A DNA stretch of 48,761 nt from Deltaproteobacteria bacterium. GTDB lineage: Bacteria; Myxococcota_A; UBA796; JAFGLY01. Shown piece after piece: positions 25,059 to 44,128 of this stretch. Position 1 is the stretch's first letter; each line of letters starts with the position of its first letter. Position numbers and translations under genes: made by a program. Below the pieces are notes generated by a model. It did no database searches, was not told where the DNA came from, and worked only from the letters and a program-made list of their open reading frames with translations. Location of the stretch: positions 1 through 48,761 of the forward strand of contig JAFGLY010000158.1 in the NCBI GenBank assembly GCA_016927815.1. Reading direction: 5' to 3'.

Positions 25059-25066
25059 GGCGCGAG

Positions 25067-25687
25067 ATGACCCGGCACCCGACGCGCCTCGCGGATCGCC
25101 TGGCGGGACGCCTCGACGGCCGCATCGGGGTGGACCCCCTCCCGTCGGCGCCCGACGGCGACGATCCCAGCACGCCACCGGAGGCACTGGATGCCCTCTT
25201 CCGGGCCGACTCGCCCGAGGCGGTGCTGGCTGCCGCGGCACAGGCGGATGCCCTGCCCCCGTCGATCCGGGAGGTGGTGGCCCGCATCCACGCCCACATC
25301 GACCGCTGGGAACGCACCCCCCGGCCGCGATCCGAGACCTTGCCGGCAGCCCGTCGGGCCGATGCCGTCCCGGGCCCCGAGGCGGGCGCGTCGGTGGACC
25401 CCATCTTGGACCGGCGCATGGACCACCTCGTCCGGCGCCTGGTCCGCCTCGTCCACCTCGCCGAGGTCGACCGGCGCCGGTACGAGGCGCAGCGCCAGGT
25501 CCGCATGGCGGAGGCCACGCCGGAAGCCGTCCAGGAGGCCACTCCCCAGGCCGCCGGCCCGACCGGAACCCCGCCCCCGGACCTGGGTGCCCTGGGTCGC
25601 CAGGTCCTGGAGGCCGTGACCCGCATCCTCGAATCCCGCCAGCAACGGCGGCAGGAGGAGCCCGATGTCCGCGACGTTTGGTGGTAG
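25067..25687 (+). CDS. Hypothetical helical protein in the CIS operon
   Basis: A 206-residue protein, Ala/Arg-rich and largely helical (FRADSPEAVLAAAAQADALP, HLVRRLVRLVHLAEVDRRRYEAQRQVRMAEATPEAV), with a Pro-rich interruption and an unusual C-terminal VWW. No family is recognised. It occupies the place of the small Afp6-type gene between tube initiator and LysM adaptor. ATG 25067 has GAGG upstream; GTG 25055, overlapping the previous stop, is an alternative. The 3' end overlaps the next gene by 23 bases. It could be a chaperone or a baseplate linker, but there is no direct evidence. Confidence 0.7.
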   Translation: MTRHPTRLADRLAGRLDGRIGVDPLPSAPDGDDPSTPPEALDALFRADSPEAVLAAAAQADALPPSIREVVARIHAHIDRWERTPRPRSETLPAARRADAVPGPEAGASVDPILDRRMDHLVRRLVRLVHLAEVDRRRYEAQRQVRMAEATPEAVQEATPQAAGPTGTPPPDLGALGRQVLEAVTRILESRQQRRQEEPDVRDVWW

Positions 25688-26345
25688 CCCCACCAAGGCC
25701 ACGTTCCAGATCCTCGAGGGTCCCCACGCGGGGATCTTCCAGGTCCAGTACAACCCCAAGGAGTTCCGCGTCCAGCGGTCGGTGCAGTGGTCCGAGCACG
25801 AGGAGAACGGGCAGCCGCAGGGCTTCCTCGAGTTCCAGCAGGGCAGCGCCATGTCCGTGACCATGGACCTCATCTTCGACACCACCTGCGAGAGCGGCGC
25901 GGCCCGCGACGTCCGCGCGATGTGGGTCAACGGACTCCTGGTCATGACCAACGCGGAGTGCCAACCCGAGAGCGGCGAGTCGCAGGACCAGGACAAGCAG
26001 CGCCCCCCCAAGATCCTCTTCACCTGGGGGTCCTTCCAGCTGACCTGCGTGGTGGAGTCGGTGGACACCACCTACCTGCTCTTCTCGGGGGACGGCACGC
26101 CGCTCCGGGCACGCTGCTCGGTGCAGCTCAAGGAGTGGACCGAGTCCACCTACGCGGCCGCCACCGGCGGGAAGCGCTGGGAGGGGAACGCCATCCGGCT
26201 GGTGGAGGCGAAGGCCGGCAGTCTTCCCGCCAACGTGGCCTGGGAAACCCGGACCCCCTGGCGGAAGATCGCCGAAGACAACGATCTGGACGACCCCATG
26301 GCCGAGATCCCCGCCGGCATGGAGATCGTCGTCCGGCGACCCTAG
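25665..26345 (+). CDS. CIS tube-associated LysM-like adaptor (Afp7-like)
   Basis: A 226-residue protein of the contractile injection system tube family. It opens KATFQILEGPHAGIFQVQYNPKEFRVQRSVQW, where the QYNPKEF motif is diagnostic, and has FTWGSFQLTCVVESVDTTYLLF and ARCSVQLKEW. The C-terminus WRKIAEDNDLDDPMAEIPAG is a degenerate LysM, with the usual W..IA..N.IdDP..l.pG pattern. Afp7-type proteins join the tube initiator to the spike hub. A strong GGAGG site precedes the ATG. It overlaps the 3' end of the previous gene. Confidence 0.9.
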   Translation: MSATFGGSPTKATFQILEGPHAGIFQVQYNPKEFRVQRSVQWSEHEENGQPQGFLEFQQGSAMSVTMDLIFDTTCESGAARDVRAMWVNGLLVMTNAECQPESGESQDQDKQRPPKILFTWGSFQLTCVVESVDTTYLLFSGDGTPLRARCSVQLKEWTESTYAAATGGKRWEGNAIRLVEAKAGSLPANVAWETRTPWRKIAEDNDLDDPMAEIPAGMEIVVRRP

Positions 26346-26390
26346 CCGGTCCGGGCCACCGGATCCTGGCCCGCACGAACGAGGTAGCGC

Positions 26391-27428
26391 ATGCCGGAGC
26401 AGGACAGCCAGGTACGAAGCGCAGCGTCCTACGAGATCGTCATCGCGGGCACCACCTACACGCAGCGGGACCGCCTGGGCGTCGAGTCGCTCACGATCGA
26501 GGATCACGTGGACATGGTGTCCATGCTGACGATGGAGGTCGGAGGGGCCGAGGGGCAGCCGGCCTGGACCTTCGAGATCGGCCAGGAGGTCACGGCCAAG
26601 GTCGGAGACATGACCGCCGTGATCTTCAAGGGCGAGATCACGGCGCTGGAGCCCTCCTGGAGCGCCAAGAACGGTGCCCGGATCGTGGTCCGCGCCCTGG
26701 ATCCGCTCCACAAGCTGGGGCGGGGCCGCCAGAGCCGCGCCTTCCCCGATCAGACGGACTCCGACGTCGTCAGCACCGTGGCGGGCGACTGCGGCCTCAA
26801 CGTCGAGGTGGACACCACCTCGCCGACCCACCCCTACATCCTCCAGCGAAACGAGAGCAACATCTCGTTCGTGAAGCGCCTGGCCGCCCGGAACAACTTC
26901 CTGCTGAGGCTGGACCGCGAGACCCTCCTCTTCAAGAAGAACCAGTACACCGGAGACGAGGTCACGCTCACCAACGGCGCCAACGTCCAGTCCCTGCGCA
27001 TCTCGGCCAACACCGCCGACCTCGCCGACAAGGTCGTGGTTCGGGGATGGGACCCCCTCACCAAGCAGGCGGTCGTGGGCGAGGCCTCGTCCGTGACGAG
27101 CGTGGGCGGAGGGACGACCGGTATCGACCTCGCCAAGACGAAGTTCGGCGAGCACACGTCCTACGTCACGGACGTCCCGGTCACGGATCAGAACCTGGCC
27201 ACCGCCATCGCGACCGCCGAACTGGAACGGATCGCGCGCCAGTTCGTAAGGGGGAATGCGACCATCTACGGCAACGATCGGGTCCGGGCCGGGACCAACG
27301 TCGTCCTGGCGGAGTTCAACAGCCCCTGGGACGGCAAGTACTTCGTGATGGCGTCTCGACACGTGATCGGGTCCGGCGACGCCTACCTCACCGAGTTCAC
27401 CTTCTGCAGCAACTCCTTCGGCTCATGA
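26391..27428 (+). CDS. Hub protein (gpD/gp27-like) without visible spike domain
   Basis: A 345-residue late-control gene D/gp27-like hub: YEIVIAGTTYTQRDRLGVESL, DMVSMLTMEVGG, GEITALEPSW, DVVSTVAGDCGLNVEVDTT, NISFVKRLAARNNFLLRLD, and at the end VVLAEFNSPWDGKYFVMASRHVIG. In Afp8 and VgrG the hub is fused to an OB fold and a beta-helical spike. Here the gene stops after the gp27-like part, shorter than Afp8 (about 500-600 residues). The spike would have to come from another gene. ATG 26391 has GAGG upstream. Confidence 0.88.
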   Translation: MPEQDSQVRSAASYEIVIAGTTYTQRDRLGVESLTIEDHVDMVSMLTMEVGGAEGQPAWTFEIGQEVTAKVGDMTAVIFKGEITALEPSWSAKNGARIVVRALDPLHKLGRGRQSRAFPDQTDSDVVSTVAGDCGLNVEVDTTSPTHPYILQRNESNISFVKRLAARNNFLLRLDRETLLFKKNQYTGDEVTLTNGANVQSLRISANTADLADKVVVRGWDPLTKQAVVGEASSVTSVGGGTTGIDLAKTKFGEHTSYVTDVPVTDQNLATAIATAELERIARQFVRGNATIYGNDRVRAGTNVVLAEFNSPWDGKYFVMASRHVIGSGDAYLTEFTFCSNSFGS

Positions 27429-27459
27429 GCGATTTCACGCGAGCACGGGGGCCTTCCCC

Positions 27460-27858
27460 ATGACGGTGCGCAAGGAATTCCTCGGACGCGGATGGACGTT
27501 CCCCTTCGCCTTCGACGCGGCCAAGGGCGGGGTTGCCATCTCCGAGTACGAGGAGAACATCCGCCAGTCCATCACGGTCATCCTGGGAACCCGTCCCGGG
27601 GAGCGCCTCACCCTCCCGGAGTTCGGCTGCCGCATCCATGAGCTGTTGTTCGCGCCCAACACGCGGGCCACCGCGGCCATGGTGGCCTACCACGTGGAGC
27701 AGGCCCTCAAGCGCTGGGAACCGCGCATCGAGGTCACCGGCATCCAGGCCCGTCCCGGGGAGGCCGGCATGCTCAAGGTCGAGGTGGACTACCGGATCAT
27801 CTCCACCAACAGCCCCCAGAACCTGGTCTACGTCCTCTCCAACGGAAGTCGCCGCTGA
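27460..27858 (+). CDS. gp25-like baseplate wedge protein (Afp9-like)
   Basis: A 132-residue gp25/GPW family protein: GRGWTFPFAFDAAKGGVAIS, EENIRQSITVILGTRPGERLTLPEFGC and a long IEVTGIQARPGEAGMLKVEVDYRI. The EFGC motif and the GTRPGERL turn are strongly conserved, and EPR residues in this family trigger sheath assembly. It is standard length. The stop overlaps the next start by one base (TGATG). Confidence 0.95.
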   Translation: MTVRKEFLGRGWTFPFAFDAAKGGVAISEYEENIRQSITVILGTRPGERLTLPEFGCRIHELLFAPNTRATAAMVAYHVEQALKRWEPRIEVTGIQARPGEAGMLKVEVDYRIISTNSPQNLVYVLSNGSRR

Positions 27859-30800
27859 TGCCCATCAAGCCTCCCAACCTGGATGACCGCAGGTACGTGG
27901 ACCTCGTCGCCGAGGCCCGCGCCCTCATCCCCCAGTACTGCCCTGAGTGGACGAACCTCAACGACGCCGACCCCGGCATGACCCTCGTCCAGTTGTTCGC
28001 CTGGATGACGGAGATGATCGTCTACCGACTGAACCGGGTGCCGGACAAGACCTACATCCACTTCCTCAACTTCATCGGCGAGGAACGGCGACCTGCGCGG
28101 CCTGCGGTGGCGCCGGTGACGTTCGCCTCCCGATCGGACGACCCGGTGGACCTGCCCGCCTTCACCCGCGTGGCCACGCGGCAGCGGGAGGATCAGCCCG
28201 CCCTGCCCTTCGTCACCGTCTCGCCGTTGACCGTGCACAGCGCCACGGTCAAGCGGGTCATGGCCGTTCGGGGCGGGAACCGACCGGCGGTCCGGGAGAT
28301 CCCCTTCACCCTCGTCGACGGCCACCCCTCTGCGCTCGCCTTCGGAGCGGGCCGCGGCGTCCAGGTCTTCGATCTCGATCCCGTGGAGGCAGGCCCCGAG
28401 TCCTACACCCCCCACCAGTACCTGTACGTCAACCACGACGACGTACGCCTGATGAACTTCGACCCCGAGAAGGAGGATCGTCCGGTGGGACGGCTCCACG
28501 TGAGGCGGACCGGGGCCGAGGGGCTCTCGGTGGTGAGCCTGTTCGACTGGGAGTACCCCACCGAGGAGGGGTGGGCCCCCATCGCGCTCGACGCGGAACC
28601 CGAGGAGGTCCTCGGGATGCCCGTGGTGACCCTCCAGGCGGCCTTGCCGGGCATCCGGCCCCTGGAGGACTTCCACCTTCCCGAGGCGGCCATCGCGCTC
28701 CCCGAGGCCGTCAAGGAGGAGCGCTGGTGGATCCGCGGCCGGCTGGCGTACGAGCGCTGGCTGGCGCGTCGCATGCAGGAGGATCTCGAGGTCTCCTGGC
28801 GCGACGACCGGGGCGGGGCTGCGAGGCCCATCAACAACTGGGAGGTGAACGCATCGGGCCGATCCATCCTGTTCGCCCTACAGGACGTCCCTCCCATCCG
28901 AGGCGGCTGGACCGTACGGCTCGCCCTGGTGGATCGGGGCCTCCCGGCGGGCCGCAACGGCTACCTCCCGACCTACCGCTGGTCGTACCGGCGCGGGGAC
29001 ACCTGGGAGTCCATCCCCTCGGAGCGCGTGCGGATGGAGAACTCCGTGGTGGTGCTCACCGGCCCCATGACCGACATGGCCACCGACGGCTACAACCTCA
29101 GGGCCGAGCGCATCGAGACGGTGTACCTGCGCGGCATCTGCCCGGACCTCGACCTGGATCTCACCTGGATCCGCCCGGTGGAGATCTCCATGTTCGCGGG
29201 CGACGATCCGCGCCGCCTGGAGGCCATGCTCCTCGACGAGGGGCCGTGGTCCCCCTTCCAGATGGGCCCCACCCTCCCCCCCACCATCGGGCGCAAGTGG
29301 TACATCGGAAGCGACCTGTTCGAGAACCGACGGCAGGCGCCGGTCCTCGTCGAGCTGGAGGTGGCCTTCGAGGTGAACGGCGAGCCGGTCGCGGAGCCGG
29401 TCGGAGACTACGTCCTGCAGTTGACCTACCGGGCCCAGGACAACTGGCGCGTGGTGTGGAGCGAGGACAAGCGCTTCGCCGGCTTCACGTTCGCCTCGTT
29501 CGACGAGGAGGGGGCCAAGAAGCCCGGCCGCAGGCGCATCCGCATCGTGCTCGATCCCAAGACCGCGTTGAAGGGGCTCGCCCGACACGAGGTCGGAGGG
29601 CGGGAGAGCACCTGGATCCGCTTCGAGATGACCAAGAGCAACCTCACCGTCACGGACAAGGAGAAGAACCGCCACCCGGTCGTGCCGCGCATCTACGGGG
29701 TCCGTCTCGGTCCCGACAAGACGCTCGGAGACGGGACCTTCGAGCAGCCGATGCCCGGACCCAAGATGAGCGAGCTCGACTACCGGCCCCAGAACCAGCG
29801 GCTCACCCGGATCCTCACCCGCGCCACCGGCCGTCTGGCCGAGCACTACCCGTTCTATCCCTTCATCGAGCTGGACCAGGAGAACCTCTCCTTCTACCTG
29901 GAGCTCGACCGCCCGATCCCGCGTGCCGATCGCCACTCCATCCACCTCCGCTGCCGCGGAGAGTCGTTCCTTCCCGCCGGCACCCAGGTGGACTGGGAGG
30001 TGTTGGAGCAGAGGGACTTCGGCCGCACGGCCTGGCAGCGGATCCGATCGTCCTCCACGCCGCAGGCCGGGGGCGATCAACCGGTGTACGACTTCACGAG
30101 GACCGGCGAGTTCGCCTTCGCCTACCCCGACCCGCCGCCCACCCCGGAAGACGGCTTCTGGATGCGGGCTCGGTTCGTGCTGCCCGAGGGCATGGCAGCC
30201 GATCGGTTCCCGGCACTCCCGCCCCTCACGCACCTGCTCCTGAACACGGTCGACGCGGTCAACCTGTGGACGCTCACCACGGAGCGGTTCTCCGGGTACG
30301 GGGTCCCACACCAGGTCCTCCAGCTCCGGCGCCACCCCATCTACGTCCACCACGGCGAGTCGGAGCGCATTCCGTTCCCCCGGCCCGACGCGTTCACGGA
30401 CATTCGTGTCTGGGTGGAGGGCGAGGACGGCAACCGGGAGGAGTGGCTCCCGGCCCGCGACGGCAACCTGCTCACGGCCACCAAGGACGACCGTCTCTTC
30501 CTGGTCGACCCCGTGGAGGGCACGCTCACCTTCGGCAACGGCATCCGGGGCCGCATGTTGCCGGTCGGCAACAGCAACGTGGTGGTAGACGTCTACCACG
30601 TGATCCCCGGTGCGTCGGGCAACGTTGCCGCAGGAGCGGTCCAGGTGGTGGAGGATCGGGCGGACCTGGTCAAGGCCACCAACCTCCTGCCGTCCACCGG
30701 CGGACGGGACGCGGAGACGATCGAGGAGATCGTCCGGCGGGCCCCGAGCCTGCTCACCAGCCGGGATCGTGCGGTCACCCGATCCGACTTCGAGGTCATC

Positions 30801-31373
30801 GCCCGGGAGGCATCCGGCGAGGTGTCCCGGGCGTCCTGCACCGGCGAGATGCAGCCCGACGGCTCCGTGGAGGTGGTGATCCTCCCCACTCGGCGCGAGG
30901 GAGAGGAGACCCCGGATCCCTTCCTCTCCACCGGCCTTCGGGATCACGTCCAGGCCTACCTGAAGCGCCGTTGCCTCGTCAACGTGGATCCCGTGGTCCG
31001 CCTGGCGCGCTTCCGCCCCATCGACGTGTCGGTCACGCTCCGGCTACGGCCCAACGCCAACATCCTGGTCGTCCGCGAGCAGGCCATCGCCTGGATTCGC
31101 CGGTTCCTCGACCCCTACGACGGCGGGTTCGACAGGGACGGCTGGCCTTTCGGCGGCACCCTCTACGCCCAGGACCTGGCCCGGCTGGTCGCGGACCTGG
31201 CCGACGTTCGGCACGTGGCGGCCGTCCGGCTCTACGACATGGCCGACCCCGCCCGACAGAGGGAGGGTCCGGGCTGGGAGCAGGGAGAAGGCGTCGAGAG
31301 CATCGAACAGACGGGCCACGATCTCTTCGTCGTCCGGCGCATCCGCGTCCTGGCCGAGGAGATCTCGGCATGA
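27858..31373 (+). CDS. Large baseplate J/gp6-like protein (Afp11-like)
   Basis: A 1171-residue putative baseplate assembly protein. The N-terminus (LIPQYCPEWTNLNDADPGMTLVQLFAWMTEMIVYRLNRVP) carries the DPGMTLVQLFAW signature of the eCIS baseplate protein family. Near the end, the J-like region reads LTFGNGIRGRMLPVGNSNVVVDVYHVIPGASGNV and SLLTSRDRAVTRSDFEVIAREASG, typical gp6/BapJ segments. The middle is a long beta-rich insertion common in eCIS forms. It forms the wedge ring around the hub. It overlaps both neighbours (TGATG upstream, ATGA downstream). Confidence 0.93.
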   Translation: MPIKPPNLDDRRYVDLVAEARALIPQYCPEWTNLNDADPGMTLVQLFAWMTEMIVYRLNRVPDKTYIHFLNFIGEERRPARPAVAPVTFASRSDDPVDLPAFTRVATRQREDQPALPFVTVSPLTVHSATVKRVMAVRGGNRPAVREIPFTLVDGHPSALAFGAGRGVQVFDLDPVEAGPESYTPHQYLYVNHDDVRLMNFDPEKEDRPVGRLHVRRTGAEGLSVVSLFDWEYPTEEGWAPIALDAEPEEVLGMPVVTLQAALPGIRPLEDFHLPEAAIALPEAVKEERWWIRGRLAYERWLARRMQEDLEVSWRDDRGGAARPINNWEVNASGRSILFALQDVPPIRGGWTVRLALVDRGLPAGRNGYLPTYRWSYRRGDTWESIPSERVRMENSVVVLTGPMTDMATDGYNLRAERIETVYLRGICPDLDLDLTWIRPVEISMFAGDDPRRLEAMLLDEGPWSPFQMGPTLPPTIGRKWYIGSDLFENRRQAPVLVELEVAFEVNGEPVAEPVGDYVLQLTYRAQDNWRVVWSEDKRFAGFTFASFDEEGAKKPGRRRIRIVLDPKTALKGLARHEVGGRESTWIRFEMTKSNLTVTDKEKNRHPVVPRIYGVRLGPDKTLGDGTFEQPMPGPKMSELDYRPQNQRLTRILTRATGRLAEHYPFYPFIELDQENLSFYLELDRPIPRADRHSIHLRCRGESFLPAGTQVDWEVLEQRDFGRTAWQRIRSSSTPQAGGDQPVYDFTRTGEFAFAYPDPPPTPEDGFWMRARFVLPEGMAADRFPALPPLTHLLLNTVDAVNLWTLTTERFSGYGVPHQVLQLRRHPIYVHHGESERIPFPRPDAFTDIRVWVEGEDGNREEWLPARDGNLLTATKDDRLFLVDPVEGTLTFGNGIRGRMLPVGNSNVVVDVYHVIPGASGNVAAGAVQVVEDRADLVKATNLLPSTGGRDAETIEEIVRRAPSLLTSRDRAVTRSDFEVIAREASGEVSRASCTGEMQPDGSVEVVILPTRREGEETPDPFLSTGLRDHVQAYLKRRCLVNVDPVVRLARFRPIDVSVTLRLRPNANILVVREQAIAWIRRFLDPYDGGFDRDGWPFGGTLYAQDLARLVADLADVRHVAAVRLYDMADPARQREGPGWEQGEGVESIEQTGHDLFVVRRIRVLAEEISA

Positions 31374-32458
31374 CCCGCACGGAGATCGCCCTGAGGCGTA
31401 CGGGCCGCATCGCGGCCCACGGGAGCGACCTCCAGGTCATCGAGGAGGTGGTGCGGGTGGGGTTTCCCATCCAGGCTGCGCGCAGCTACCTGAGGCGACA
31501 TCTGGGCAACGAGATCCGCGTGCGCCTCGTGGAGGCGGTTCGAGGCGAACGCCTGGGCCACGTGCGTGCCGCCGAGGTGCTTCCCGCGGGAGGTGGGGAG
31601 CCCATGGTCGTCCGTGCGATCCGCACGCTGCCGGACGGATCCCCCGCCTCCTTCTTCGCGCCCGAGGACCAGGTCACGCTCACCACGACCGTGGAGGTGC
31701 CGGGTGGGGCGCGGTTCACCCCCTCCCCGCGGGACACGGTGCTCCTCCACGTGCCGGTCCGTGGGTACACCCGGTACCTGCCCTCGATCTACCAGGGCCA
31801 GGCGCCGGTGGTCCACAAGCGGGAGGTGGCTCCGCTGGACGCCGCGGCCGCCCGGCGCCCGGGGGCCCGGTCGGACGCCGCGGCCGAGCCGGACGACAAC
31901 GAAGCGTTTCGACGGTTTCTCTTCGTCTTTCAGCACCTCATGACCACCGTGCTGGATCGGGTGGACCAGATCCCCTCGCTCACGGATCCCATCGTCTCGG
32001 ACGCGCGGTTCCTGCCGTGGATCGCCTCCTGGGTCCATTTCGAGCTGGACGGATCCCTCCCGGTCCACCAGCAGCGGGAGCTGGTGCGTCGCGCCATCCG
32101 CCTCTACCGCAACCGAGGCACCCGGGAGGGCATGGAGGACATGATCCGCGTCCTCACCTCCGCGCCCGTGCGGGTGCTCGAGCGCGAGAAGCCTCCCCCC
32201 GCTGCGCTGGGTGCGATGGTCCTCTCCGGCGGCCGAGACCTGGCCGGCCGGTACCTCAAGGACGAGCCGCTGGCGCACTTCCTGATTCCCCAAGACCGCC
32301 AGTGCATCCGCTACTTCGCCCTGGCTCTGGAGTCCCGGGCCCGATTCGAGCGCCGCTTCGGCGAACGGGCCGTGGAGGTGCTCCGCCGCATCACCCGCAT
32401 CGTCACCGCGGAGAGGCCCGCGCACGTGCTCTTCACGATCCGCTTCGACGAGTCCTGA
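31370..32458 (+). CDS. Afp12/gpI-like baseplate protein
   Basis: A 362-residue baseplate protein. A gpI-like core is seen at RFLFVFQHLMTTVLDRVDQIPSLTDPIVSDARFLPWIASWVHFELD and RRAIRLYRNRGTREGMEDMIRVLT; the RNRGTREGM motif is diagnostic of the P2 gpI/Afp12 tail family. Baseplate wedge proteins of this type hold the gp6-like ring and, in phage, the tail fibres. An N-terminal extension (RYLPSIYQGQ) precedes the core. The start overlaps the previous stop (ATGA). Confidence 0.9.
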   Translation: MTRTEIALRRTGRIAAHGSDLQVIEEVVRVGFPIQAARSYLRRHLGNEIRVRLVEAVRGERLGHVRAAEVLPAGGGEPMVVRAIRTLPDGSPASFFAPEDQVTLTTTVEVPGGARFTPSPRDTVLLHVPVRGYTRYLPSIYQGQAPVVHKREVAPLDAAAARRPGARSDAAAEPDDNEAFRRFLFVFQHLMTTVLDRVDQIPSLTDPIVSDARFLPWIASWVHFELDGSLPVHQQRELVRRAIRLYRNRGTREGMEDMIRVLTSAPVRVLEREKPPPAALGAMVLSGGRDLAGRYLKDEPLAHFLIPQDRQCIRYFALALESRARFERRFGERAVEVLRRITRIVTAERPAHVLFTIRFDES

Positions 32459-32499
32459 CCCCCCCGAAGGACGTCCCACCGCCGCCGGAGAACCGCCCG

Positions 32500-33435
32500 A
32501 TGCAGAATCCCTTCCAGTTGACCCGGCTCCGTCCGTTCGAAGGCCTGTGCCTCACCGCCCAGGACCTCCAGGACGAGCAGGAATACCACCGTCGCGCGCT
32601 GCGCCGCCACCACTACTTCCTGCACGGATTCGGCATCGTGCAGGGACTGCAGGTGGAGCTGCAGCAGCGAAAGGAGAAGTACGTCGCCATCATCCAGGCG
32701 GGCTTCGGGATCACCTCCCTGGGCCAGGGCGTGCTGCTCAGCGAAGCGGCCGCAGTGCCGCTCGAGGTCCCCAAGCAGGATGGAGAGTACGTGCTCTGGC
32801 TCTTCCACGTCGAGTCCACGAGCGACGCCGACGTGCGACCCGTCTTCGACAGCACCGAGGAGCAGCCCTCGCGCGTGCTGGAGGGCAGCGCCCCCCGGCT
32901 GCACGTGTTGGGGGAGGAGCAGCCCGATGCCGTGGCTCTCTGCCGCATCAACGTGCGCCTCGGTCGGATGGTCCAGGTGCCGCTCCCGGTCCCGAGGGCC
33001 GGCCGCCACGCCCGTGCCGCCGAGTCCTACCTGAAGCCCAGCGTCATCGAGTACATCCGGCTCAACAAGAAGATCCTGCAGAGCCTCTTCCGCACGGCCC
33101 TCCTGAAGGAACTGGGCCTCCCCTCGCTCGGGTTCTACTCCGCGCTGATCGGATCGGAACTCCTGCTCATCGAGGAGGGAACGTCGGATCGGGTCCTGTA
33201 CCGGACGGCCGGATCCCTCATCGCCTACGGCCACGACTTCTTCGACCCCCTTCCCAAGACGACCGATCGCATCGACAAGTACAAGGAGTTCGTCCGCCGG
33301 GTCAACGCCGAGGTCCCCGCCCCGGATCAGGGCGACGACGTGTGGCTCCGGTGGTTCGAGAAGTTCGAACGCCTGCTCCAGCCGCTCGCCAAGATCGTGG
33401 AGGAGCTGGAGCGGACCGTGGAGGCCCAACGGTAG
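32500..33435 (+). CDS. eCIS-associated protein, possible baseplate accessory
   Basis: A 311-residue protein opening LTRLRPFEGLCLTAQDLQDEQEYHRRALRRHHYFLHGFGIVQGLQVE, a conserved N-terminal pattern (F.G..L.a.D...eQ.YhR...R.hnr.lHG.Gvv.GL) found in many eCIS and tail loci. The middle is beta-rich (GEYVLWLFHVESTS, VALCRINVRLGRMVQVPLP) and the C-terminal third is helical. No enzymatic motif is visible. From its position it could be a baseplate-attached or receptor-facing protein. ATG 32500 has GGAG about 10 bases upstream, a slightly long spacing. Confidence 0.75.
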   Translation: MQNPFQLTRLRPFEGLCLTAQDLQDEQEYHRRALRRHHYFLHGFGIVQGLQVELQQRKEKYVAIIQAGFGITSLGQGVLLSEAAAVPLEVPKQDGEYVLWLFHVESTSDADVRPVFDSTEEQPSRVLEGSAPRLHVLGEEQPDAVALCRINVRLGRMVQVPLPVPRAGRHARAAESYLKPSVIEYIRLNKKILQSLFRTALLKELGLPSLGFYSALIGSELLLIEEGTSDRVLYRTAGSLIAYGHDFFDPLPKTTDRIDKYKEFVRRVNAEVPAPDQGDDVWLRWFEKFERLLQPLAKIVEELERTVEAQR

Positions 33436-33441
33436 CCGCTC

Positions 33442-34365
33442 ATGCCGGACATGGAACCCCGCCAGACCGTCCAGGTACGGGTGCAGGTCGTGGACCTGCG
33501 CTCCTTCACGCTGGATCTCGTCGTGCCGACCTACCTGCCCGCCCGCGATCTCACGCACCGCATCGCTCGGGACGCGGGCCTCGAGTCCCACTGGCCCGAT
33601 GGACGGCGCCATCTCTACTGGCTCCGCGCCCGGGGCCGTCTCCTGGGCGACGACGAAAAGCTCGGTGATCTGGGGATCGTGGACGGGGAGTTGGTCTACT
33701 TCCTGCCCGAGCCCCCGCTGGGCAGCGGGGTCGTGGAGCAGACCCCCGACTACCCGCAGACCCACAGCTACGCCGGGCGCGGCATCTGGGCTCTCCTGGC
33801 GAGCATCGTGGGTGTGTGCGCCTGGAGCCTGGCCTGGGGTGTGGCCCTCTCCGTGGATCGCAGCCTCCTCGTGGTGACGCTGCCGGGCCTGGGCCTCGGG
33901 TTCCTGGTCACCTCGCTCGCTCGGCACGCCTGGGGCGGCCATGGGGCCCGCGCTCGGGTGGTCGCCACGGGCCTGGGCCTCTTCGTGGCGCTGGCCTGCC
34001 TGGCCGTCGCGGTGCCGGTCTTTCTCGAAGGCGAGCCCATCGGCGCCCTCTTCGCCCAGCTCATCCCCGGCCTCATCGCCGGGTTCATCGGGGTCCTTCT
34101 GGGATGGCTGGCCTGGTGGGGCGCCGTGGAGCCGCTCTCCGAGACGCCCCGCACCTCGCCGGCGGCCGCTGCCGAGGCTTCCGGGCAGGCCGCAGCCCTG
34201 GTGGCCTGCGCCATCTGTGGCATGCCGGTGGCGCCCGAGGTCCGCCAGGAGTGCCCCCACGGGTGCGGTCGCGTCTTCCACGTCGGCTGCTGGCAGGCGC
34301 GCGCGTCGGTCTATCGTGGCGATCCCGGCATCTGCGCCATCTGCGGCCAGCCCATCGCCCGATGA
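33442..34365 (+). CDS. Membrane protein with ubiquitin-like N-domain and RING-like C-domain
   Basis: A 307-residue protein with three parts. Residues about 9-90 form a beta-grasp/ubiquitin-like domain of YukD/EccD type (VQVRVQVVDLRSFTLDLVVP, then GRLLGDDEKLGDLGIVDGELVYFLP). Four TM helices follow at about 114-136, 141-160, 172-194 and 202-227. Residues 256-301 form a zinc-finger-like C4HC3 module: C-x2-C-x11-C-x3-C-x4-H-x2-C-x14-C-x2-C, with FHVGCW as in RING/PHD folds. It begins 6 bases after the previous stop, inside the CIS operon. The T7SS EccD also has a ubiquitin-like domain before TM helices, but no RING is known there. E3-like activity is not shown by the sequence. A structural zinc-binding anchor is an equal possibility. 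Confidence 0.8.
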   Translation: MPDMEPRQTVQVRVQVVDLRSFTLDLVVPTYLPARDLTHRIARDAGLESHWPDGRRHLYWLRARGRLLGDDEKLGDLGIVDGELVYFLPEPPLGSGVVEQTPDYPQTHSYAGRGIWALLASIVGVCAWSLAWGVALSVDRSLLVVTLPGLGLGFLVTSLARHAWGGHGARARVVATGLGLFVALACLAVAVPVFLEGEPIGALFAQLIPGLIAGFIGVLLGWLAWWGAVEPLSETPRTSPAAAAEASGQAAALVACAICGMPVAPEVRQECPHGCGRVFHVGCWQARASVYRGDPGICAICGQPIAR

Positions 34366-36713: not shown

Positions 36714-38834
36714 ATGAGTACTATCGCGAGCTTGACCGCCACGGGACGCCGGATGCACGGACCGGCCTCCGACCTCGTTGAACTGGTGAACGACGACGGG
36801 TACCGGCACACGGCGATCGTGTTCCACCCCGAGTTCCGGGATCACCCCTCCATCAACGCCGCGCTGGCGGTGGTGCTGGGGTTCCTCGAATCCCCGATGG
36901 TCACGGGTCTCGTGGAGCTCGTCGCCCACGACCGGGACGAGGGCGCGTTCGTCTACCCCACCGGCCAGTGCTGGTCCGTGGCCGAGGTGAACCGCGTCTA
37001 CGCCGACCTGGGCGAGGTACCCGGCGTGCGGGCCGGTCTCGAACTCCTCTACGCCGCGGGCGAGATCCTCAACGAGGCGGCCGACACCGGAGAGGCGCAC
37101 GGGGTCTACTCCCACGGCGGACTCACCCCGTGGCGGGTGCTGCTCAAGCCCGACGGACAGGCCCTCGTCATCGGCCACGCGCTCCCCCAGGTGGAGATCT
37201 CGAGGTTCCGGGAGGACCCCAAGGCCATTCCCCGGGAGGACTCCTTCCGGTACTGCCCCCCCGAGCGACTCGACGGGAGGTCCGAGAACGTCTCCTCCGA
37301 CCACCTCTCCCTGGCGCTCATCGCCTTTGAGCTGATGACTGGGAAGCCCGTCTACGACGGCCTGGTCAACGACATCCGCGCCCAGGCCAGCCGGGGTGAG
37401 GGATCGCGACGCCTGTTCCGCTTCCGCGACACGCTCCCGCACGGCGTCCAGGAGCTGCTCAAGGTCTGCTTCCGGCCCGAGATGGACGGCCGCCACCCCA
37501 GTGGGGCCCGCTTCCTGGACGAGGTGCGCGCCTGCCTGTCGAGTCGAGAGGTGGAGGGCCCCTCGCTCCTGGACGTGATGACCCGTGTCTCGCGCGTGCA
37601 GCAGCGGATCGGACAGCCGCTCGACAGCGGCGCCACCATGATGTTCCAGAAGGAACAACTGGCCGAGGTGCTCGGAGGCGAGGCCCCGTCCCGCCCGTCC
37701 ACCCGCGAGGCATGGACCCCCCCCACCGGTACCCGCCGACCGCCTCCGCGCTCCGAGGCTGCAGCCGATCCGGCCCCGGAAGCGCCGCCCCCTGCCGCGA
37801 GGCCTCCGAGCGCACCCGCCGCCTCCCCGGCCGAGCCTCCGGGGTCCTCCGAGGCCGCACGTTGGCGGCGCCCGACGCGCAGCCCGCCTCCCGCCGAGGC
37901 GACGTCCTCCCCGGATCAGGCGCATCCGCCCCAGGAACCCCCTCCCCTGCGGCAGCCGGCAGCGCCGGCGCGACCGGGCATCGGCGTGGCCCGGCGCCCC
38001 CCGCGTCTCGCGGCGAGGGGCCCGGAAGAAGAACCGGCCGCCCCGGCGGCGCCCGCCGAGCGGCCCGCAGCCTCCGCCCCCCCCCCACCGCCGCCCGAGG
38101 AGCCGCCCACCGCCGTGTCGAGCCCCCCCGCCGCGGCACCTTCGGCTGCTTTGCCCGAGCCGCCACCGCTCCCACCGGTGGCGCCCCAGCGGACGCCGCT
38201 GGGCAGCCTCGCGCCTCCCGAAGACAGCGCTCCGGAGGAGGACGACGCCTCCGAGGGCACGGGACTCCTCGCGCGACCCGTCAAGTCCGGCGCGCTTCGG
38301 ACCCAGGTCTGGCGGGTACCCGACCGCCTGTCCGACGAGGCCCTCCGCGGGGACACCGCCGTCTTCCGCCTCCGGCTCGCACCGGGCGCGAGCGAGTCCC
38401 GGTTCCGCCTCCCCGTCCGAGCCCCCTCCTCCGAGGCCCTGGCCAGCCTCGTGGGACGCCACCTGCCGCTCCGGGCCGATCCTTCGGGCCGGCTCGCCGG
38501 ATGGTGGCGGTTCTCCCTCGACGGACAGGCGGTTCCCGGTACGCGGGCCATGGCCGACCTTCCCCAGGACGGCATCCTGGACATCGCGTTCGTGGAGAAC
38601 CAGGTCCGGTTGGTGGACCTCGAGGTCGTCGCTCCGTCCGGCGCGGTCCGTCTCCGCATCGCCCTGGGCACGGCGGTTCCGGCCGTCACGATCGTGGACG
38701 CCGTGGCCCAGGTGCTCGACCTGCCCGAGGGCAACTGGCGCCTCGAGGTCGGTTCCCACGCCTGTGAGCCGCACGAGATCCTCGCGGACCATCCCGAGTC
38801 GCAGGGCACGGTCCTGTCGGTCGTCGCCAGATGA
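36714..38834 (+). CDS. Pseudokinase with tandem C-terminal ubiquitin-like domains
   Basis: A 706-residue protein. Residues about 1-275 show a protein-kinase fold pattern: ELLYAAGEILNEA, then YSHGGLTPWRVLLKPDG at the catalytic loop, CPPERLDG and SSDHLSLALIAFELMTGKPVY. Key residues are lost: HRD is HGG, DFG is GHA, and the VAIK lysine is absent (TAIVF). A Pro/Ala-rich linker spans about 325-505. Two beta-grasp-like segments end the protein, at about 546-632 (FRLRLAPGASESRFRLPV, WRFSLDGQAV, ADLPQDGILDIAFV) and about 633-706 (AVRLRIALGTAVPAVTIVDAVAQVLDLPE). It may act as a scaffold reading or presenting partners. Its stop overlaps the next ATG by four bases. Confidence 0.78.
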   Translation: MSTIASLTATGRRMHGPASDLVELVNDDGYRHTAIVFHPEFRDHPSINAALAVVLGFLESPMVTGLVELVAHDRDEGAFVYPTGQCWSVAEVNRVYADLGEVPGVRAGLELLYAAGEILNEAADTGEAHGVYSHGGLTPWRVLLKPDGQALVIGHALPQVEISRFREDPKAIPREDSFRYCPPERLDGRSENVSSDHLSLALIAFELMTGKPVYDGLVNDIRAQASRGEGSRRLFRFRDTLPHGVQELLKVCFRPEMDGRHPSGARFLDEVRACLSSREVEGPSLLDVMTRVSRVQQRIGQPLDSGATMMFQKEQLAEVLGGEAPSRPSTREAWTPPTGTRRPPPRSEAAADPAPEAPPPAARPPSAPAASPAEPPGSSEAARWRRPTRSPPPAEATSSPDQAHPPQEPPPLRQPAAPARPGIGVARRPPRLAARGPEEEPAAPAAPAERPAASAPPPPPPEEPPTAVSSPPAAAPSAALPEPPPLPPVAPQRTPLGSLAPPEDSAPEEDDASEGTGLLARPVKSGALRTQVWRVPDRLSDEALRGDTAVFRLRLAPGASESRFRLPVRAPSSEALASLVGRHLPLRADPSGRLAGWWRFSLDGQAVPGTRAMADLPQDGILDIAFVENQVRLVDLEVVAPSGAVRLRIALGTAVPAVTIVDAVAQVLDLPEGNWRLEVGSHACEPHEILADHPESQGTVLSVVAR

Positions 38835-40456
38835 GCCAGGAGCGCTGGGACGTCGTCGTCCGCTACCTGACCGGTCCGCTGTCCATCCAGGGCGAGCAGG
38901 TCTACCGGGGGCCCGTGATCCGGATGGGGGCCAACCCGGGCCCGGGGGGCGTGACCCTCGCGGGCTATCGCGGCCTCGACGCGCGCCATGCGGTGATCAC
39001 CTCCTACGAGGGCGGCCAGGTGGCCATCGCGCCGGTGGGCAACGCCCAGGTGCGGGTGGCACCCCACGAGAACGTGGACTGGAACGAGGTCCAGGTGATC
39101 CCGCACCCGGTCTACCTGCAGGACGGCTGCGCGGTGCACCTGGGCCCGCCGGGCCGTGGGCTCACCTTCCTGTTCGTGGAGTGCCGTCGGCTCGGGGTGT
39201 GGGAGGAGCACCGCATCCTCTCGGATGCCGCCCAGGTGTCGCCGGAGGTCGAGCCGACCCGGATCCAGGAACTGTCCACCGAGAAGGGGATGCCCACCTG
39301 GTTCATCGGCGGAGTGGTCATGGCAGGGATCGTGACCGCCGTGGCGGTCCTGTTCTCCCTCTTCCGCTTCTACGAGAACCCCATCGCGGGCCTGGGCCCC
39401 ACCGGGGAGGGTGTCGAGCGGTACGAGTACGTCCCGGTGGACATGGAGCTCAACAGCGAGTTGAGGGAGGGCCTCGACCAGCCCTTCGCCGACTTCCTGA
39501 TGATCCCGAACGCGAGGGCCGCGGATTGGAAGGCCCTGGCCGAGGACCCCGCGCAGTGGGACCAGCGCCTGCTGGACCAGGTCACGCGCTCCGTCCAGCT
39601 GCACGCCCAGGGATGGGCCTTCTTCAAGCGGTTGGAAGCCGCCACCGAGGACTGGGCCTTCGTCGTCGGCGAGCTACGGAAGGCCGGCCTCCCCGAGGTG
39701 TTCGCGGCCATCCCCTACCAGGAGAGCAGGTACACCGCCAACGCCGTCTCCCCGGTGTGCGCCCGCGGCTTCTGGCAGTTCATGCCCGAGGTGGCGAACC
39801 GGGCCGGGGTTCGAGTCCGGGAGTGCTCCATGAAGGGGGGAGACGTGCTCTGGAGCCCCACCGCGATGGTGGTCCCCGTCAACGCCCGGAAGCGCGCCGA
39901 GTACGTCTCCTACAACGCGGAAAAGAACACCACCACCTGCCTCATCCGCCAGTGCGCGGTAGACGAGCGCAGCGACCTGGCCGCCTCCACGCGAGGGGCC
40001 GTCACCCTGCTCCAGGACGTCATGAAGGACCCGGATCTGCGTCGGTCCGGGGCTCTGCTCCAGATCGCCATCACCTCCCACAACACCGGCTACGACGACG
40101 CCCGCTTCGACGAGGGCGGCAGAGGCCGACGCCGGATCTTCAACGTGAAGCCCGCCTACCAGAGGTACCTCGAGGCCCGCCGGCTCGACCGCGGACCGTT
40201 CTTCGTGGGCGACAACATCACCTGCGCCTCGGCCACGTTCGTGAACGATGCGTGCGGCGGGTTCCTCATGGACCAGTCCCAGCACTACGCCTACAACATC
40301 ATCGCCCAGCACTTCCTCGCGGTCTGCTACTACGGCGCCGCCCACGGCGACCTCCCGGCGTTCAAGCCGTGGCGCGGCTATGTACGCGGCGACGGATACT
40401 GTACCCGCTTCCAGGTTCCCTCCCTGGAGAAGGTCCGGGAGAAGATGTCCCAATGA
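38831..40456 (+). CDS. FHA-like/TM/lytic transglycosylase fusion
   Basis: A 541-residue protein. Residues about 5-120 are a divergent FHA-like beta domain (VIRMGANPGPGGVTLAGYRGLDARHAVI, strongly FHA in the RxG...ARHA pattern). A TM helix lies at about 156-180. The extracytoplasmic part has a GH23 lytic transglycosylase domain: LPEVFAAIPYQESRY with the catalytic glutamate at 298, GFWQFMP, then DERSDLAASTRGAVTLLQDV and a C-terminal HNTGY motif. These MltD/SLT-type enzymes cleave peptidoglycan glycan strands. The combination places a phosphothreonine reader in the cytoplasm and a wall-cutting enzyme in the periplasm. It overlaps both neighbours by ATGA. Confidence 0.9.
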   Translation: MSQERWDVVVRYLTGPLSIQGEQVYRGPVIRMGANPGPGGVTLAGYRGLDARHAVITSYEGGQVAIAPVGNAQVRVAPHENVDWNEVQVIPHPVYLQDGCAVHLGPPGRGLTFLFVECRRLGVWEEHRILSDAAQVSPEVEPTRIQELSTEKGMPTWFIGGVVMAGIVTAVAVLFSLFRFYENPIAGLGPTGEGVERYEYVPVDMELNSELREGLDQPFADFLMIPNARAADWKALAEDPAQWDQRLLDQVTRSVQLHAQGWAFFKRLEAATEDWAFVVGELRKAGLPEVFAAIPYQESRYTANAVSPVCARGFWQFMPEVANRAGVRVRECSMKGGDVLWSPTAMVVPVNARKRAEYVSYNAEKNTTTCLIRQCAVDERSDLAASTRGAVTLLQDVMKDPDLRRSGALLQIAITSHNTGYDDARFDEGGRGRRRIFNVKPAYQRYLEARRLDRGPFFVGDNITCASATFVNDACGGFLMDQSQHYAYNIIAQHFLAVCYYGAAHGDLPAFKPWRGYVRGDGYCTRFQVPSLEKVREKMSQ

Positions 40457-41172
40457 AACTCCGCCCCTGGATCCTCGGCGCGGTCCTCGTCGGAGCCCTG
40501 GGGGTGAACGGGTACCTGGTGATCCATGAGCGGATTGCCGTCGGCGAGTCCGAAGCCCGCCACCGTACCCGCAAGGAGGATCCCCTCATCGACCTCCCGT
40601 ACACCTCCGCCAGTCGGTCGTCCGACTTCGGGCGCTTCGGGCTCGTCGGGCCCCTGCTCACGCAGGCCGTGGAGCGCGTCCAGGAGCAGGACGAGGCCAA
40701 CCGGGCCCTGCTCAAGGATCGCATCGAGAACGTCGGCGATCCCGACCTGTTCCTGAAGACCTTCTGCCGCACCGATCGCGGGGGCCTGCCTCCCCACTAC
40801 TCGGGCCTGGCCTGGTTGGTCCAGGACGAAGGCGGGCGGCGCAGCGCGATCTCCGTCCCCCGGATCACCTCGCTGGAGCCCGGGGAGTGGGCGAGCCGCT
40901 CCCCCATCGCCGAGGTGTACGCCACCGTGGAGTTGAACGACGACCGGAAACCCGACGCCACGGTGATGGGACTCGCGGCCATCCTGCTCGGCAGGGAGGA
41001 CGAGGCCATCCATCGCCGCTCCCCGTGGGGCCAGGGGCTCGGAGGCCGCTGGTCCTGGGAGCGGCTGCAGAAGGAGGACGTCGGGATCGCCGACCAGGTC
41101 ATGCAGTACCTCGTCCTTCTGCACCTCACGATGGAGATCGTCACGGCCGAGGGCGGCTTCTGCAGCGACTGA
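40453..41172 (+). CDS. Membrane-anchored hypothetical protein
   Basis: A 239-residue protein with an N-terminal signal anchor (WILGAVLVGALGVNGYLVIH) and a soluble part (FGLVGPLLTQAVERVQEQDEANRAL, VMGLAAILLGREDEAIH, QYLVLLHLTMEIVTAEGG) with two cysteines. No family is recognised. The start overlaps the transglycosylase stop (ATGA), so the two proteins probably work together, perhaps as partners in the periplasm. There are 107 bases between its stop and the next gene. Confidence 0.7.
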   Translation: MKLRPWILGAVLVGALGVNGYLVIHERIAVGESEARHRTRKEDPLIDLPYTSASRSSDFGRFGLVGPLLTQAVERVQEQDEANRALLKDRIENVGDPDLFLKTFCRTDRGGLPPHYSGLAWLVQDEGGRRSAISVPRITSLEPGEWASRSPIAEVYATVELNDDRKPDATVMGLAAILLGREDEAIHRRSPWGQGLGGRWSWERLQKEDVGIADQVMQYLVLLHLTMEIVTAEGGFCSD

Positions 41173-41279: not shown

Positions 41280-42968
41280 ATGTCTGTGGAGCCGCGTCGT
41301 AGATTCCGTTTCCTGCAGGAGATCTCCGAGGGGTCCTTCGGCAAGGTGTACCTCGCCGAGATGATCACGGGCGACAACTTCTCCACCATCGTGGCCATCA
41401 AGCTCCTGCACGGCAAGTGGCTCGGGCACGAGGAGATCGTGATGCGGTCGCGGGACGAGGCTCGCCTGCTCGGCCTGCTGCGCCACCAGAACATCATCCG
41501 GGTGGAGGACCTCACCTCCATCAACGGCCAGTGTGCCGTCGTCATGGAGTACCTGGACGGGGTCGACCTGAAGAGCCTCATCGCGTTCCTCGTCGAGCGG
41601 CGCACCCTGTTCCCGCGCCACGCCGCGGCCGAGATCACCGGGGGCATCGCCGCCGCCCTGGAGGCTGCCTACAACCACCGTCCTCTCCAGGGGGGAGACC
41701 CCCTGCGGGTCATCCACCGTGACATCAAGCCTTCCAACGTGATGATCACGGCCGCTGGAGAGGTGAAGGTCCTCGACTTCGGGACCGCCCGTGCCAACTT
41801 CCAGGACCGGGAGGCCCAGACCCAGGCGCTCGCGTTCGGGTCCCAGGCCTACATGGCCCCCGAGCGCAAGGAGGGCGAGCCCGACTCGCCCGCCGGAGAC
41901 GTCTTCAGCCTCGGCGTCACGCTGTACGAACTTCTGGCCCTCGACCGGTTCGGCACGATCTACATCCGGGAGGACCGCTACCGCACGGTGCTCCAGCAGA
42001 ACATCGAGGCGCTGGACCTCACCGCCTGGCCGGATCCGTACCCGGCCGAGGTCCGCACGTTCCTGTACCGGATGATGGACTACCGCCCGGAGAACCGCCC
42101 TCCTGCGGCCGAGGTCATCGAGGCCATGGAGGATCTGGCCGACAAGGCGAACGACCTCACGTTGAGGCGTTTCTGCCGCCGCTACGTGGCCGAGGCGGTA
42201 TCCCGGCGCGAGCCCATGCAGACCCCGGGGGATCCGCTGACCGGATCCACCCTGGTGGAGGATGCCAGCAGCGCCTTCGGGACCCGGATGAGAGACGACG
42301 AGGTGGTGAGCGGCCCCTGGCCCGTCCGCCAGGAGAGACCGCCGGAGGCGGTCGCGCCCGAACCTCCCGAGGAGGTCCCACCCTCTCCCCTCCCCCCGGT
42401 CGGGGAGCCCCCGGTGCAGCAGGCGCCCGTGCCCGAGGTCGCGCCTCCCCCGGAGGGGGGGTCCGTCGAACCACCCGTGCCCGAGGCCGCGCCTCCGGCC
42501 GCTCCGGCCCGGCGTTCGCGCGGGCTCCTCTACGGGATCGTCGGACTCGTCGTCCTCGGGGTCCTGGGCGCTGCCGCCGCGCTCGTCGTGCCTGGGCTGC
42601 TCGGGGACGAAGCGGCCGAAGCACCCCCCCCCGAGGTCACAGCCGTCGAGACCGAAACCCCCATGGCCTCGCCACCGCCCCCGCCTCCCGCCACCGGAGC
42701 CGTCGGCTCCCTCCGACTCAGCATCGAACCCGTGGGCGGCGCCGTGGTCACCACCACCTCGTCCCTCTCCGGCTACCGCGACGTCTGGGACGGACAGGGA
42801 GAGCGCCTCCTCGCCGATCTCCCGGTGGGGACATACAGGACCAAGCTCAAGCTCTCCTCGGGCCGGAGCATCCGTTCCACCGTCGAGGTACGGGCAGACC
42901 AGACATGCACCTTCACCTTCGACCTCTCCTCGGGATCCGACCAATGGCACGACGACGGGTGCGACTAG
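41280..42968 (+). CDS. Transmembrane Ser/Thr protein kinase (Hanks type)
   Basis: A 562-residue active-looking kinase. Motifs: G-loop SEGSFGKVY (about 16-24), VAIK lysine 41, HRDIKPSN (146-153), DFG (166-168), MAPERKEG and DVFSLGVTLYELLAL. After a Pro/Glu-rich stretch there is a TM helix at about 415-440 and an extracytoplasmic beta domain (GSLRLSIEPVGGAVVT, LADLPVGTYRTKLKL), PEGA-like. The layout matches the kinase at 9077. The start has GAGG upstream. The end overlaps the next gene by 25 bases. Phosphorylation of the FHA-like and pseudokinase proteins nearby is inferred. Confidence 0.92.
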   Translation: MSVEPRRRFRFLQEISEGSFGKVYLAEMITGDNFSTIVAIKLLHGKWLGHEEIVMRSRDEARLLGLLRHQNIIRVEDLTSINGQCAVVMEYLDGVDLKSLIAFLVERRTLFPRHAAAEITGGIAAALEAAYNHRPLQGGDPLRVIHRDIKPSNVMITAAGEVKVLDFGTARANFQDREAQTQALAFGSQAYMAPERKEGEPDSPAGDVFSLGVTLYELLALDRFGTIYIREDRYRTVLQQNIEALDLTAWPDPYPAEVRTFLYRMMDYRPENRPPAAEVIEAMEDLADKANDLTLRRFCRRYVAEAVSRREPMQTPGDPLTGSTLVEDASSAFGTRMRDDEVVSGPWPVRQERPPEAVAPEPPEEVPPSPLPPVGEPPVQQAPVPEVAPPPEGGSVEPPVPEAAPPAAPARRSRGLLYGIVGLVVLGVLGAAAALVVPGLLGDEAAEAPPPEVTAVETETPMASPPPPPPATGAVGSLRLSIEPVGGAVVTTTSSLSGYRDVWDGQGERLLADLPVGTYRTKLKLSSGRSIRSTVEVRADQTCTFTFDLSSGSDQWHDDGCD

Positions 42969-44128
42969 CCCTCTGCGTCACCCTCCTGGCAGCTGCCCCG
43001 AGGTTCGCCCGGGCCGATGCGTGCCGGGACCTAGTCGATGCAGCCTACGAGGCGGCCCGGGCCGGCCGCTGGGAAGAGGTTCCGGAGTACGTCAAGCGCG
43101 CGGACAAGATCGCGCCCAACGCCGACCAGCCGGTCTCGTCCCACACGCTTGCCCGTCTCTGGTACCTCGAGGGCGTCGCGTACTGGTTCGGAGGCCAGAA
43201 GGACAAGGCCCTCGACCCCTGGCGCATCACCTTCCAGACCGAGATCGACTACCCGTGGGAGAGCGAGGCCTTCGTCGATGACGATGGCGAGGCCCTCTTC
43301 GAGTCCTTGAGGCGCGAGACCCGATCCCGTCCCTCGGTGTCCCTCGACATCCCGTCCAACACGGGCGCTGCGCGTTTCTACGTATCCGGACACCCCGTGG
43401 ATACCGCCAGCCGCGTGGTGGAGGGCCGACACCTCGTCCAGGCCGTCTGCCCGGATGGCTCGGTCCAGGGCAAGTGGTGGAAGTACGGCAAGCCGCCCAA
43501 GTACGAGAGCTTCTGCCCTGGGGGATTCGGCACTGCGGTCGCGGCCAGCCCGGCGGCCTCGCAGGGGGAGGTGCTCTTCGACGACTTCGGCAACCCCATC
43601 GTCGCCGCGTCGGCCGTGCGGCCGGACATGCAGCCCGCTGCCGGGACCAAGCCGGCGCCCGCCGCAACGAAGGCACCGACACCCGAGAAGAAGCCTGCGG
43701 CGACCTCCACGGCGGCGGCCTCCACGCCTTCGAAACAGACTCCCCCAAAGGCCGAGAAGCCCGCGAAGGACAGCAAGAAGCCCGCCTCGACGGCTCCCGC
43801 GGTGGCCTCCGCGTCCGGCACCTCGGGCGGCTCGAACCTCGCGAGCACGCTGCTCCTGGGTGGAGGCGGAGTGTTCCTCGCAGGCGGTGCGGCTGCCAAC
43901 TTCCTCCTCGTGAACCCCACCTGGAGCGAGATCCAGACCGCCCGCGACAAGCCGGGCAGCATCACCCGGGAGGAGGCCGATGCGCTCACCGGCCGGTTCA
44001 ACACCTGGCGCACGGTGACGGTGGGTCTACTGGGTGCAGGCGTCGCCGGTCTGGGCGCAGGTGTCCTCCTCCACGATGCCCACGTCCTCGTGGTGCCAGG
44101 CGGCTTCCTCGCACAAGGACGGTTCTGA
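42944..44128 (+). CDS. Secreted protein with Lys/Ala/Pro-rich linker and two hydrophobic helices
   Basis: A 394-residue protein with a signal peptide (VRLALCVTLLAAAPRFARA). The N-terminal body is TPR-like in its helical spacing (DACRDLVDAAYEAARAGRWEEVPEYVKRADKI, HTLARLWYLEGVAYWFGGQKDKAL), then beta-rich (ARFYVSGHPVDTASRVVEGRHLVQAVC, PEGA-like). A long Lys/Ala/Pro linker comes next, then two Gly-rich hydrophobic helices (LLLGGGGVFLAGGAAANFLL and VTVGLLGAGVAGLGAGVLL). It is similar in overall plan to the protein at 13112. Co-transcribed with the kinase, it could be an envelope partner. Function unknown. Confidence 0.7.
   Translation: MARRRVRLALCVTLLAAAPRFARADACRDLVDAAYEAARAGRWEEVPEYVKRADKIAPNADQPVSSHTLARLWYLEGVAYWFGGQKDKALDPWRITFQTEIDYPWESEAFVDDDGEALFESLRRETRSRPSVSLDIPSNTGAARFYVSGHPVDTASRVVEGRHLVQAVCPDGSVQGKWWKYGKPPKYESFCPGGFGTAVAASPAASQGEVLFDDFGNPIVAASAVRPDMQPAAGTKPAPAATKAPTPEKKPAATSTAAASTPSKQTPPKAEKPAKDSKKPASTAPAVASASGTSGGSNLASTLLLGGGGVFLAGGAAANFLLVNPTWSEIQTARDKPGSITREEADALTGRFNTWRTVTVGLLGAGVAGLGAGVLLHDAHVLVVPGGFLAQGRF

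Follow-up and report, generated by a model that had tools for sequence, protein, structure and literature searches.

How the phage-tail-like machines known as extracellular contractile injection systems (eCIS) pass through the peptidoglycan of their producer is an open question, for which lysis is usually assumed. The question is raised by a stretch of 48,761 nucleotides (the window, meaning the whole stretch of DNA analysed) from contig JAFGLY010000158.1 of assembly GCA_016927815.1, a Deltaproteobacteria bacterium of the GTDB lineage Myxococcota_A; UBA796; JAFGLY01. Downstream of a contractile injection system (CIS) cluster, the window carries a gene (38831-40456, plus strand) for a protein predicted to join an FHA-like domain, through one transmembrane (TM) segment, to a lytic transglycosylase (LT) of family GH23. 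This FHA-TM-LT fusion was found to co-distribute with the CIS among related genomes, and we examined what its architecture and genomic company suggest about its role.

Architecture of the FHA-TM-LT protein

The open reading frame starts with ATG, encodes 541 amino acids (aa), and has a coding-type GC distribution by codon position (.67/.46/.94). The start codon overlaps with the stop codon of the putative pseudokinase gene upstream (ATGA), and the stop codon overlaps with the beginning of the gene for a 239-aa protein downstream; as it overlaps both adjoining genes, the LT gene is part of an operon-like run. Full-length homologues are present in most genomes of the order, and the possibility that the gene is an isolated oddity of one metagenome-assembled genome (MAG) was rejected on that basis. 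The Pfam SLT profile (PF01464) matched residues 283-330 (E = 1.2e-9; 38.2 bits vs. a curated cut-off of 21.3) and also matched each of the 37 orthologues that were aligned, to which the conservation counts below refer. Structures found in the PDB with the LT family profile were MltD-like and Slt70. The catalytic E298 is unchanged in all 37 sequences, as are G313, W315, Q316, P319, D378, R380, H417, and G420, with N418 kept in 36. Judged from this alignment, the catalytic motifs are intact and give no sign of a dead enzyme. A second copy in one genome (G141, L137:3678-4955, minus strand) has neither the catalytic Glu nor the FHA part. No relatives of the LT were found in the viral contigs scanned.

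The catalytic half resembles MltD-type GH23 enzymes (PDB 8rhe; PF01464) in its catalytic Glu-Ser, GxWQF(M/I)P, D-x-R-x-D, and (Y/H)N-x-G motifs. Unlike those enzymes, it is without recognised LysM repeats and has the FHA-like domain, the TM segment, and Cys-rich insertions, and it scores far under the MltD and MltF equivalog cut-offs. Residues 153-181 form the only hydrophobic segment of the protein, and the flanking charge across the orthologues is net positive on the N-terminal side and net negative on the C-terminal side. Eight Cys residues are conserved, six in every sequence (310, 332, 370, 375, 499, and 524) and two in 35 (465 and 475); all lie C-terminal to the TM segment, a confinement that fits an oxidising periplasm. 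From this charge bias and Cys placement, the enzyme half is most likely located in the periplasm. The architecture proposed by the initial annotation, an FHA-like domain joined by one TM segment to a GH23 LT with E298 as catalytic residue, thus agrees with the profile comparison, the SLT match, the topology, and the conservation of E298.

The N-terminal domain was more remote from its presumed relatives. The Pfam FHA profile (PF00498) matched none of the 37 orthologues and nothing anywhere on this contig, and the 16 canonical FHA domains that Pfam detected in the same genome are all on other contigs. When the order family was compared with these 16 domains by hhalign, the match was 46% (E = 2e-4); it rose to 95.6% (E = 1.2e-8, score 50.2, 84 columns) after the addition of divergent homologues, namely a short FHA-TM form (G198), the diverged form of G053, second copies, and forms from two other families of the class. 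The highest score in 60 column-shuffled controls was 17.5, and the reversed profile scored 11.7. Given this match and the negative shuffled and reversed controls, the domain is taken to be FHA-like by descent, through a remote homology that appears to span its whole length. A profile search of the PDB with the FHA-like family alone found nothing.

Conservation within this domain departs from that of canonical FHA domains. Of the sequence patterns that had been read as FHA signatures, RxG held (R31 in 36 orthologues, G33 in all 37) and ARHA did not, as position 53 is Q in 21 sequences and H in 16. The residue after G33, which is the GR Arg position of canonical FHA domains, is Ala (A34) in 28 of the orthologues, the canonical Ser position (SxxH) is D50 in 34, and the NGT motif is absent from the alignment. 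R31, R47, R52, R75, and R109 are invariant or nearly so, and these conserved Arg residues could form a basic pocket or binding surface. The domain may be (i) a non-canonical phosphorylation reader or (ii) a phosphorylation-independent docking domain. The canonical alternative, in which the domain reads phosphothreonine and gates the LT once a kinase has phosphorylated a partner, was the switch envisaged in the initial annotation; it concerns the switch and not the link to the CIS. An active-type kinase gene adjoins, the Arg residues could serve such a reader, and control by the kinase PpkA and the FHA protein Fha1 is established for type VI secretion systems (T6SS) (PMC10433429), yet all three canonical ligand positions are lost (A34, D50, no NGT), and we regard this switch as rather unlikely. 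The locus is like the PpkA/Fha1 pathway in that a kinase and an FHA-type protein are tied to a contractile machine; unlike that pathway, the FHA-like domain here lacks the ligand residues of canonical FHA domains and forms one protein with an LT, the module includes a putative pseudokinase, and the CIS is of eCIS type.

Co-distribution of the fusion with the CIS

By Pfam and profile scans, the CIS cluster has the gene set of an eCIS, with Pvc16, eCIS_core, two sheaths, tubes, a hub, gp25, baseplate J (gpJ), and an AAA protein. No gene for the TssJLM membrane complex of T6SS was recognised among the Pfam-scanned proteins of the window, the extent of that search. The family profile of the CIS13-like protein at the end of the cluster matched the N-terminus of Anabaena All3314/Cis19 of the thylakoid-anchored CIS (tCIS; E = 1.2e-4), and the protein gave a weak hint of TssK (E = 0.022).

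The initial annotation had linked the fusion to the CIS and asked for it beside the CIS of other genomes, with homologs mainly in genomes without CIS genes as the contrary outcome; the reverse of that outcome was observed. When the CIS was called by a sheath or baseplate J of the same type as that of the window, it was present in 60 of the 63 genomes of the order, and the fusion was matched in 58 of these 60 and in none of the three CIS-negative genomes (G043, 97% complete; G151; and G269, 79% complete). The two CIS-positive genomes without a match are 80-86% complete. Included in the 58 are two that are not full orthologues, the diverged form of G053 and the FHA-TM form of G198, which is without the LT (L133:9545-10234, minus strand). 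In sixteen genomes (families f1, f2, f3, and f6), the fusion and gpJ share a contig and are 3.7-10.1 kb apart. G053 has a strongly diverged CIS (28% for gpJ, 44% for the sheath), yet the fusion and the kinase are still found downstream.

Outside the order, a CIS of this type was not found in the phylum sample (gpJ reached at most about 37% over parts), nor was the fusion at useful similarity. When CIS loci were read in other families of the class, further FHA-TM-LT genes that BLAST had missed came to light, including: (i) one beside CIS-linked genes in G009 (L147:5122-6624; SLT E = 8.5e-6); and (ii) those at or near the CIS loci of family f7 (G112, L172:8434-10146; G003, L173:3849-5567). All five gpJ-positive genomes of f7 have a fusion match, which in G256 is only a 27-residue terminal fragment, while the sixth genome of this family (G132) has neither gpJ nor the fusion. 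Overall, fusion and CIS co-distribute within the order and also in two families of the class outside it.

Several related observations were made on these loci. Of the CIS loci read in the phylum's other families (L152-L170), most encode one or more ordinary FHA-domain proteins after the baseplate genes, and FHA proteins seem to be a general companion of the CIS in those families. Next to the CIS13-like gene in class relatives, a ubiquitin-like conjugation set was detected (L141:7393-10536, L144:9319-12436, L146:6308-9307, and L147:4337-9617), consisting of an E1/ThiF protein (PF00899, E = 4.5e-38), an E2 (UQ_con), and a membrane RING-like protein, with a JAB-type protease as well in G009. The public contig CAMAXZ010000021.1, which bears the label of a Klebsiella pneumoniae MAG, carries the module of the order, and this label looks wrong.

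A proposed envelope function and its alternatives

We consider it probable that the LT resides in the inner membrane and is dedicated to the neighbouring CIS, held there by its FHA-like domain and cutting peptidoglycan locally. According to this proposal, the cytoplasmic FHA-like domain would hold the LT in a complex with the CIS, with the kinase-pseudokinase module, or with both; the periplasmic MltD-like domain would cut peptidoglycan at the site of the CIS; and the local opening would let the CIS dock to the envelope, fire across it, or pass out of it. The pseudokinase, the FHA-TM-LT protein, a small membrane protein, and the active-type Ser/Thr kinase would together constitute an envelope module of the CIS. 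The enzymatic activity of the LT, its localisation to the CIS, and a signal for its timing are elements that we infer. By sound analogy with T6SS, which require peptidoglycan cutting by MltE or TagX (PMC10433429), the LT may be expected to open peptidoglycan for the CIS. The likeness would lie in peptidoglycan cutting for a contractile machine; unlike MltE, a housekeeping LT recruited by TssM, the LT here belongs to a CIS-linked module and is fused to its own cytoplasmic domain.

Several points weigh against this proposal. Families f4 and f5 have the module on a contig other than that of the CIS, or distant from it, although several f4 genomes also have the sheath and gpJ split between contigs. 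Few independent losses lie behind the co-distribution: a single loss of a linked locus could account for the absences in both G043 and G151, the genome G269 is only 79% complete, and G132 is one genome alone. Furthermore, AlphaFold models from four-sequence input were of low confidence for both the full protein (mean pLDDT 43) and the FHA-like domain alone (mean pLDDT 44), and a Foldseek search with the latter model, as expected, found nothing meaningful.

An LT beside an eCIS could instead be a programmed-lysis autolysin, with free particles built in the cytoplasm and escaping once the kinase module unleashes the LT on the producer's wall. Reports that eCIS are free-floating and released on lysis (PMC8894136), the eCIS_core and Pvc16-type genes of the cluster, and the cell-death-linked cytoplasmic CIS of Streptomyces (PMC10066040) are consistent with this possibility. 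However, a single-pass anchored LT is better suited to local cutting than to bulk lysis, Pfam recognised no holin or second hydrolase in the module, and the kinase and pseudokinase genes together with the Cis19-like CIS13 protein hint at envelope contact; we find lysis unlikely. Two features make us prefer docking or firing over lysis: the anchoring of the enzyme and, as a weak hint, the match of the CIS13-like protein to All3314/Cis19 of a membrane-anchored CIS.

More doubtful still is a general kinase-controlled wall-remodelling enzyme, comparable to mycobacterial PknB/FhaA/MviN, that stands beside the CIS by history only. The module does resemble the mycobacterial MviN pseudokinase-FhaA complex in combining a pseudokinase, an FHA protein, a Hanks kinase, and peptidoglycan, and that complex indicates that a pseudokinase can serve as an FHA ligand (PMC11898655); the separation of module and CIS in f4 and f5 would also fit. 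Nonetheless, a housekeeping wall enzyme should not disappear along with the CIS, and the fusion is missing from the CIS-negative genomes and is found beside distantly related CIS of the class. This explanation was judged improbable. Mycobacterial FhaA differs from the LT in working with the lipid II flippase and in having no hydrolase fusion. Although hydrolase effectors are common in contractile systems, delivery of the LT into prey by the CIS is highly improbable given its TM segment, conserved cytoplasmic domain, fixed gene order, and identity of about 50% over its whole length through the order, with no effector-like turnover.

Neighbouring genes and significance for CIS biology

The order of the genes for the pseudokinase, the FHA-TM-LT protein, the 239-aa protein, and the Ser/Thr kinase is kept across the order (Table 1). 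Two kinases had been named as possible partners of the FHA-like domain. The downstream one is an intact Hanks kinase, in which the VAIK Lys (K41), HRD, and DFG are invariant in 16 of 16 sequences; the upstream one has SHGGL for HRD and GH/GY for DFG, gave a partial Pkinase match below the Pfam cut-off, and by these degenerate motifs is classed as a pseudokinase. Its C-terminal domain (38270-38834, plus strand) is conserved separately from the linker and looks beta-grasp/YukD-like by eye only. The contigs of numerous relatives stop just upstream of the LT gene, perhaps within the Pro-rich linker. An additional kinase-domain gene is present at 8606-11185.

Table 1. Features of the window, with positions and strand
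Feature	Position	Strand	Basis
FHA-like domain (aa ~1-125) - TM (153-181) - periplasmic GH23/MltD-like LT, predicted	38831..40456	+	
FHA-like domain, canonical phosphothreonine-binding residues not kept	38831..39205	+	profile-profile comparison, alignment
Single TM segment (aa 153-181)	39287..39373	+	
GH23 catalytic core (aa 283-421): E298-S, GxWQxxPE, D378xR380, SHN418xG420	39677..40095	+	
Putative pseudokinase, Pro-rich linker, conserved C-terminal domain	36714..38834	+	
239-aa protein, N-terminal TM/signal (by eye), directly 3' of LT order-wide	40453..41172	+	
Active-type Hanks Ser/Thr kinase, TM (by eye), extracytoplasmic tail	41280..42968	+	
Conserved, probably exported protein; after kinase in several families	42905..44128	+	
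YukD (ubiquitin-like) - TM - treble-clef/RING-like protein, between CIS and module	33442..34365	+	
FHA-like - TM - extracytoplasmic domain protein, no SLT match, co-distributed with CIS	4727..6355	-	
eCIS-type cluster	15649..33435		Pfam/profile scans
AAA	15649	-	
eCIS_core	17780	-	
Pvc16	19597		
Sheaths	20487 and 23395		
Tubes	22380 and 24582		
CIS_tube/LysM	25665		
Hub	26391		
gp25	27460		
Baseplate J (gpJ)	27858		
Tail_P2_I/CIS12-like	31373		
CIS13-like	32488..33435	+	

The YukD/TM/RING-like protein is kept order-wide after the CIS; it may be what is left of the conjugation set here, or the local equivalent of that set. Of the 63 genomes of the order, 56 have the second FHA-like membrane protein, and G043, G151, and G269 are without it, as they are without the LT. 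Despite its similar layout, paralogy with the LT at the sequence level was rejected for this protein (BLASTP E 0.19, no SLT). Upstream of the CIS, three probably exported proteins without a Pfam match are encoded (11195-15641, plus strand), and relatives of some of them occur near the CIS in G326 and G029. The N-terminal stretches LQQAMGNQATRAAL (in the product of 34508-36601, minus strand) and MTSALGNTAMAERL (in that of 18428-19195, minus strand) resemble CIS-cargo leader motifs.

The CIS described here is of the same broad type as the eCIS of uncultured marine Myxococcota, a group to which the window is presumed to belong and whose loci are reported to be highly transcribed (PMC11937823), and the tCIS (PMC8894136). 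An FHA-TM-LT protein was not found described with either, and PMC11937823 mentions neither FHA nor kinase. A literature search, with most subscription papers outside its reach, turned up neither an FHA-TM-LT fusion nor kinases reported at such CIS loci, and a search for a CIS with ubiquitin-like and JAB proteins was equally negative. Secretion systems are known to use specialised LTs, and also control by FHA proteins and kinases; we found no earlier account of the two fused at a CIS. It is possible, and we suggest it tentatively, that the eCIS-type machine of this class is envelope-anchored with a trans-envelope gate of its own, composed of an FHA-positioned LT under kinase/pseudokinase control, plus ubiquitin-like conjugation (E1, E2, RING-like, and JAB) in class relatives, which would be a T6SS-like mode of separate origin. 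An LT that is membrane-bound, carries a putative docking domain in the cytoplasm, and accompanies the CIS across the class is a concrete candidate for a regulated opening in the producer's wall, and the kinases, together with the ubiquitin-like conjugation genes of relatives at the same loci, point to an elaborate control of the CIS, of which we found no earlier study.

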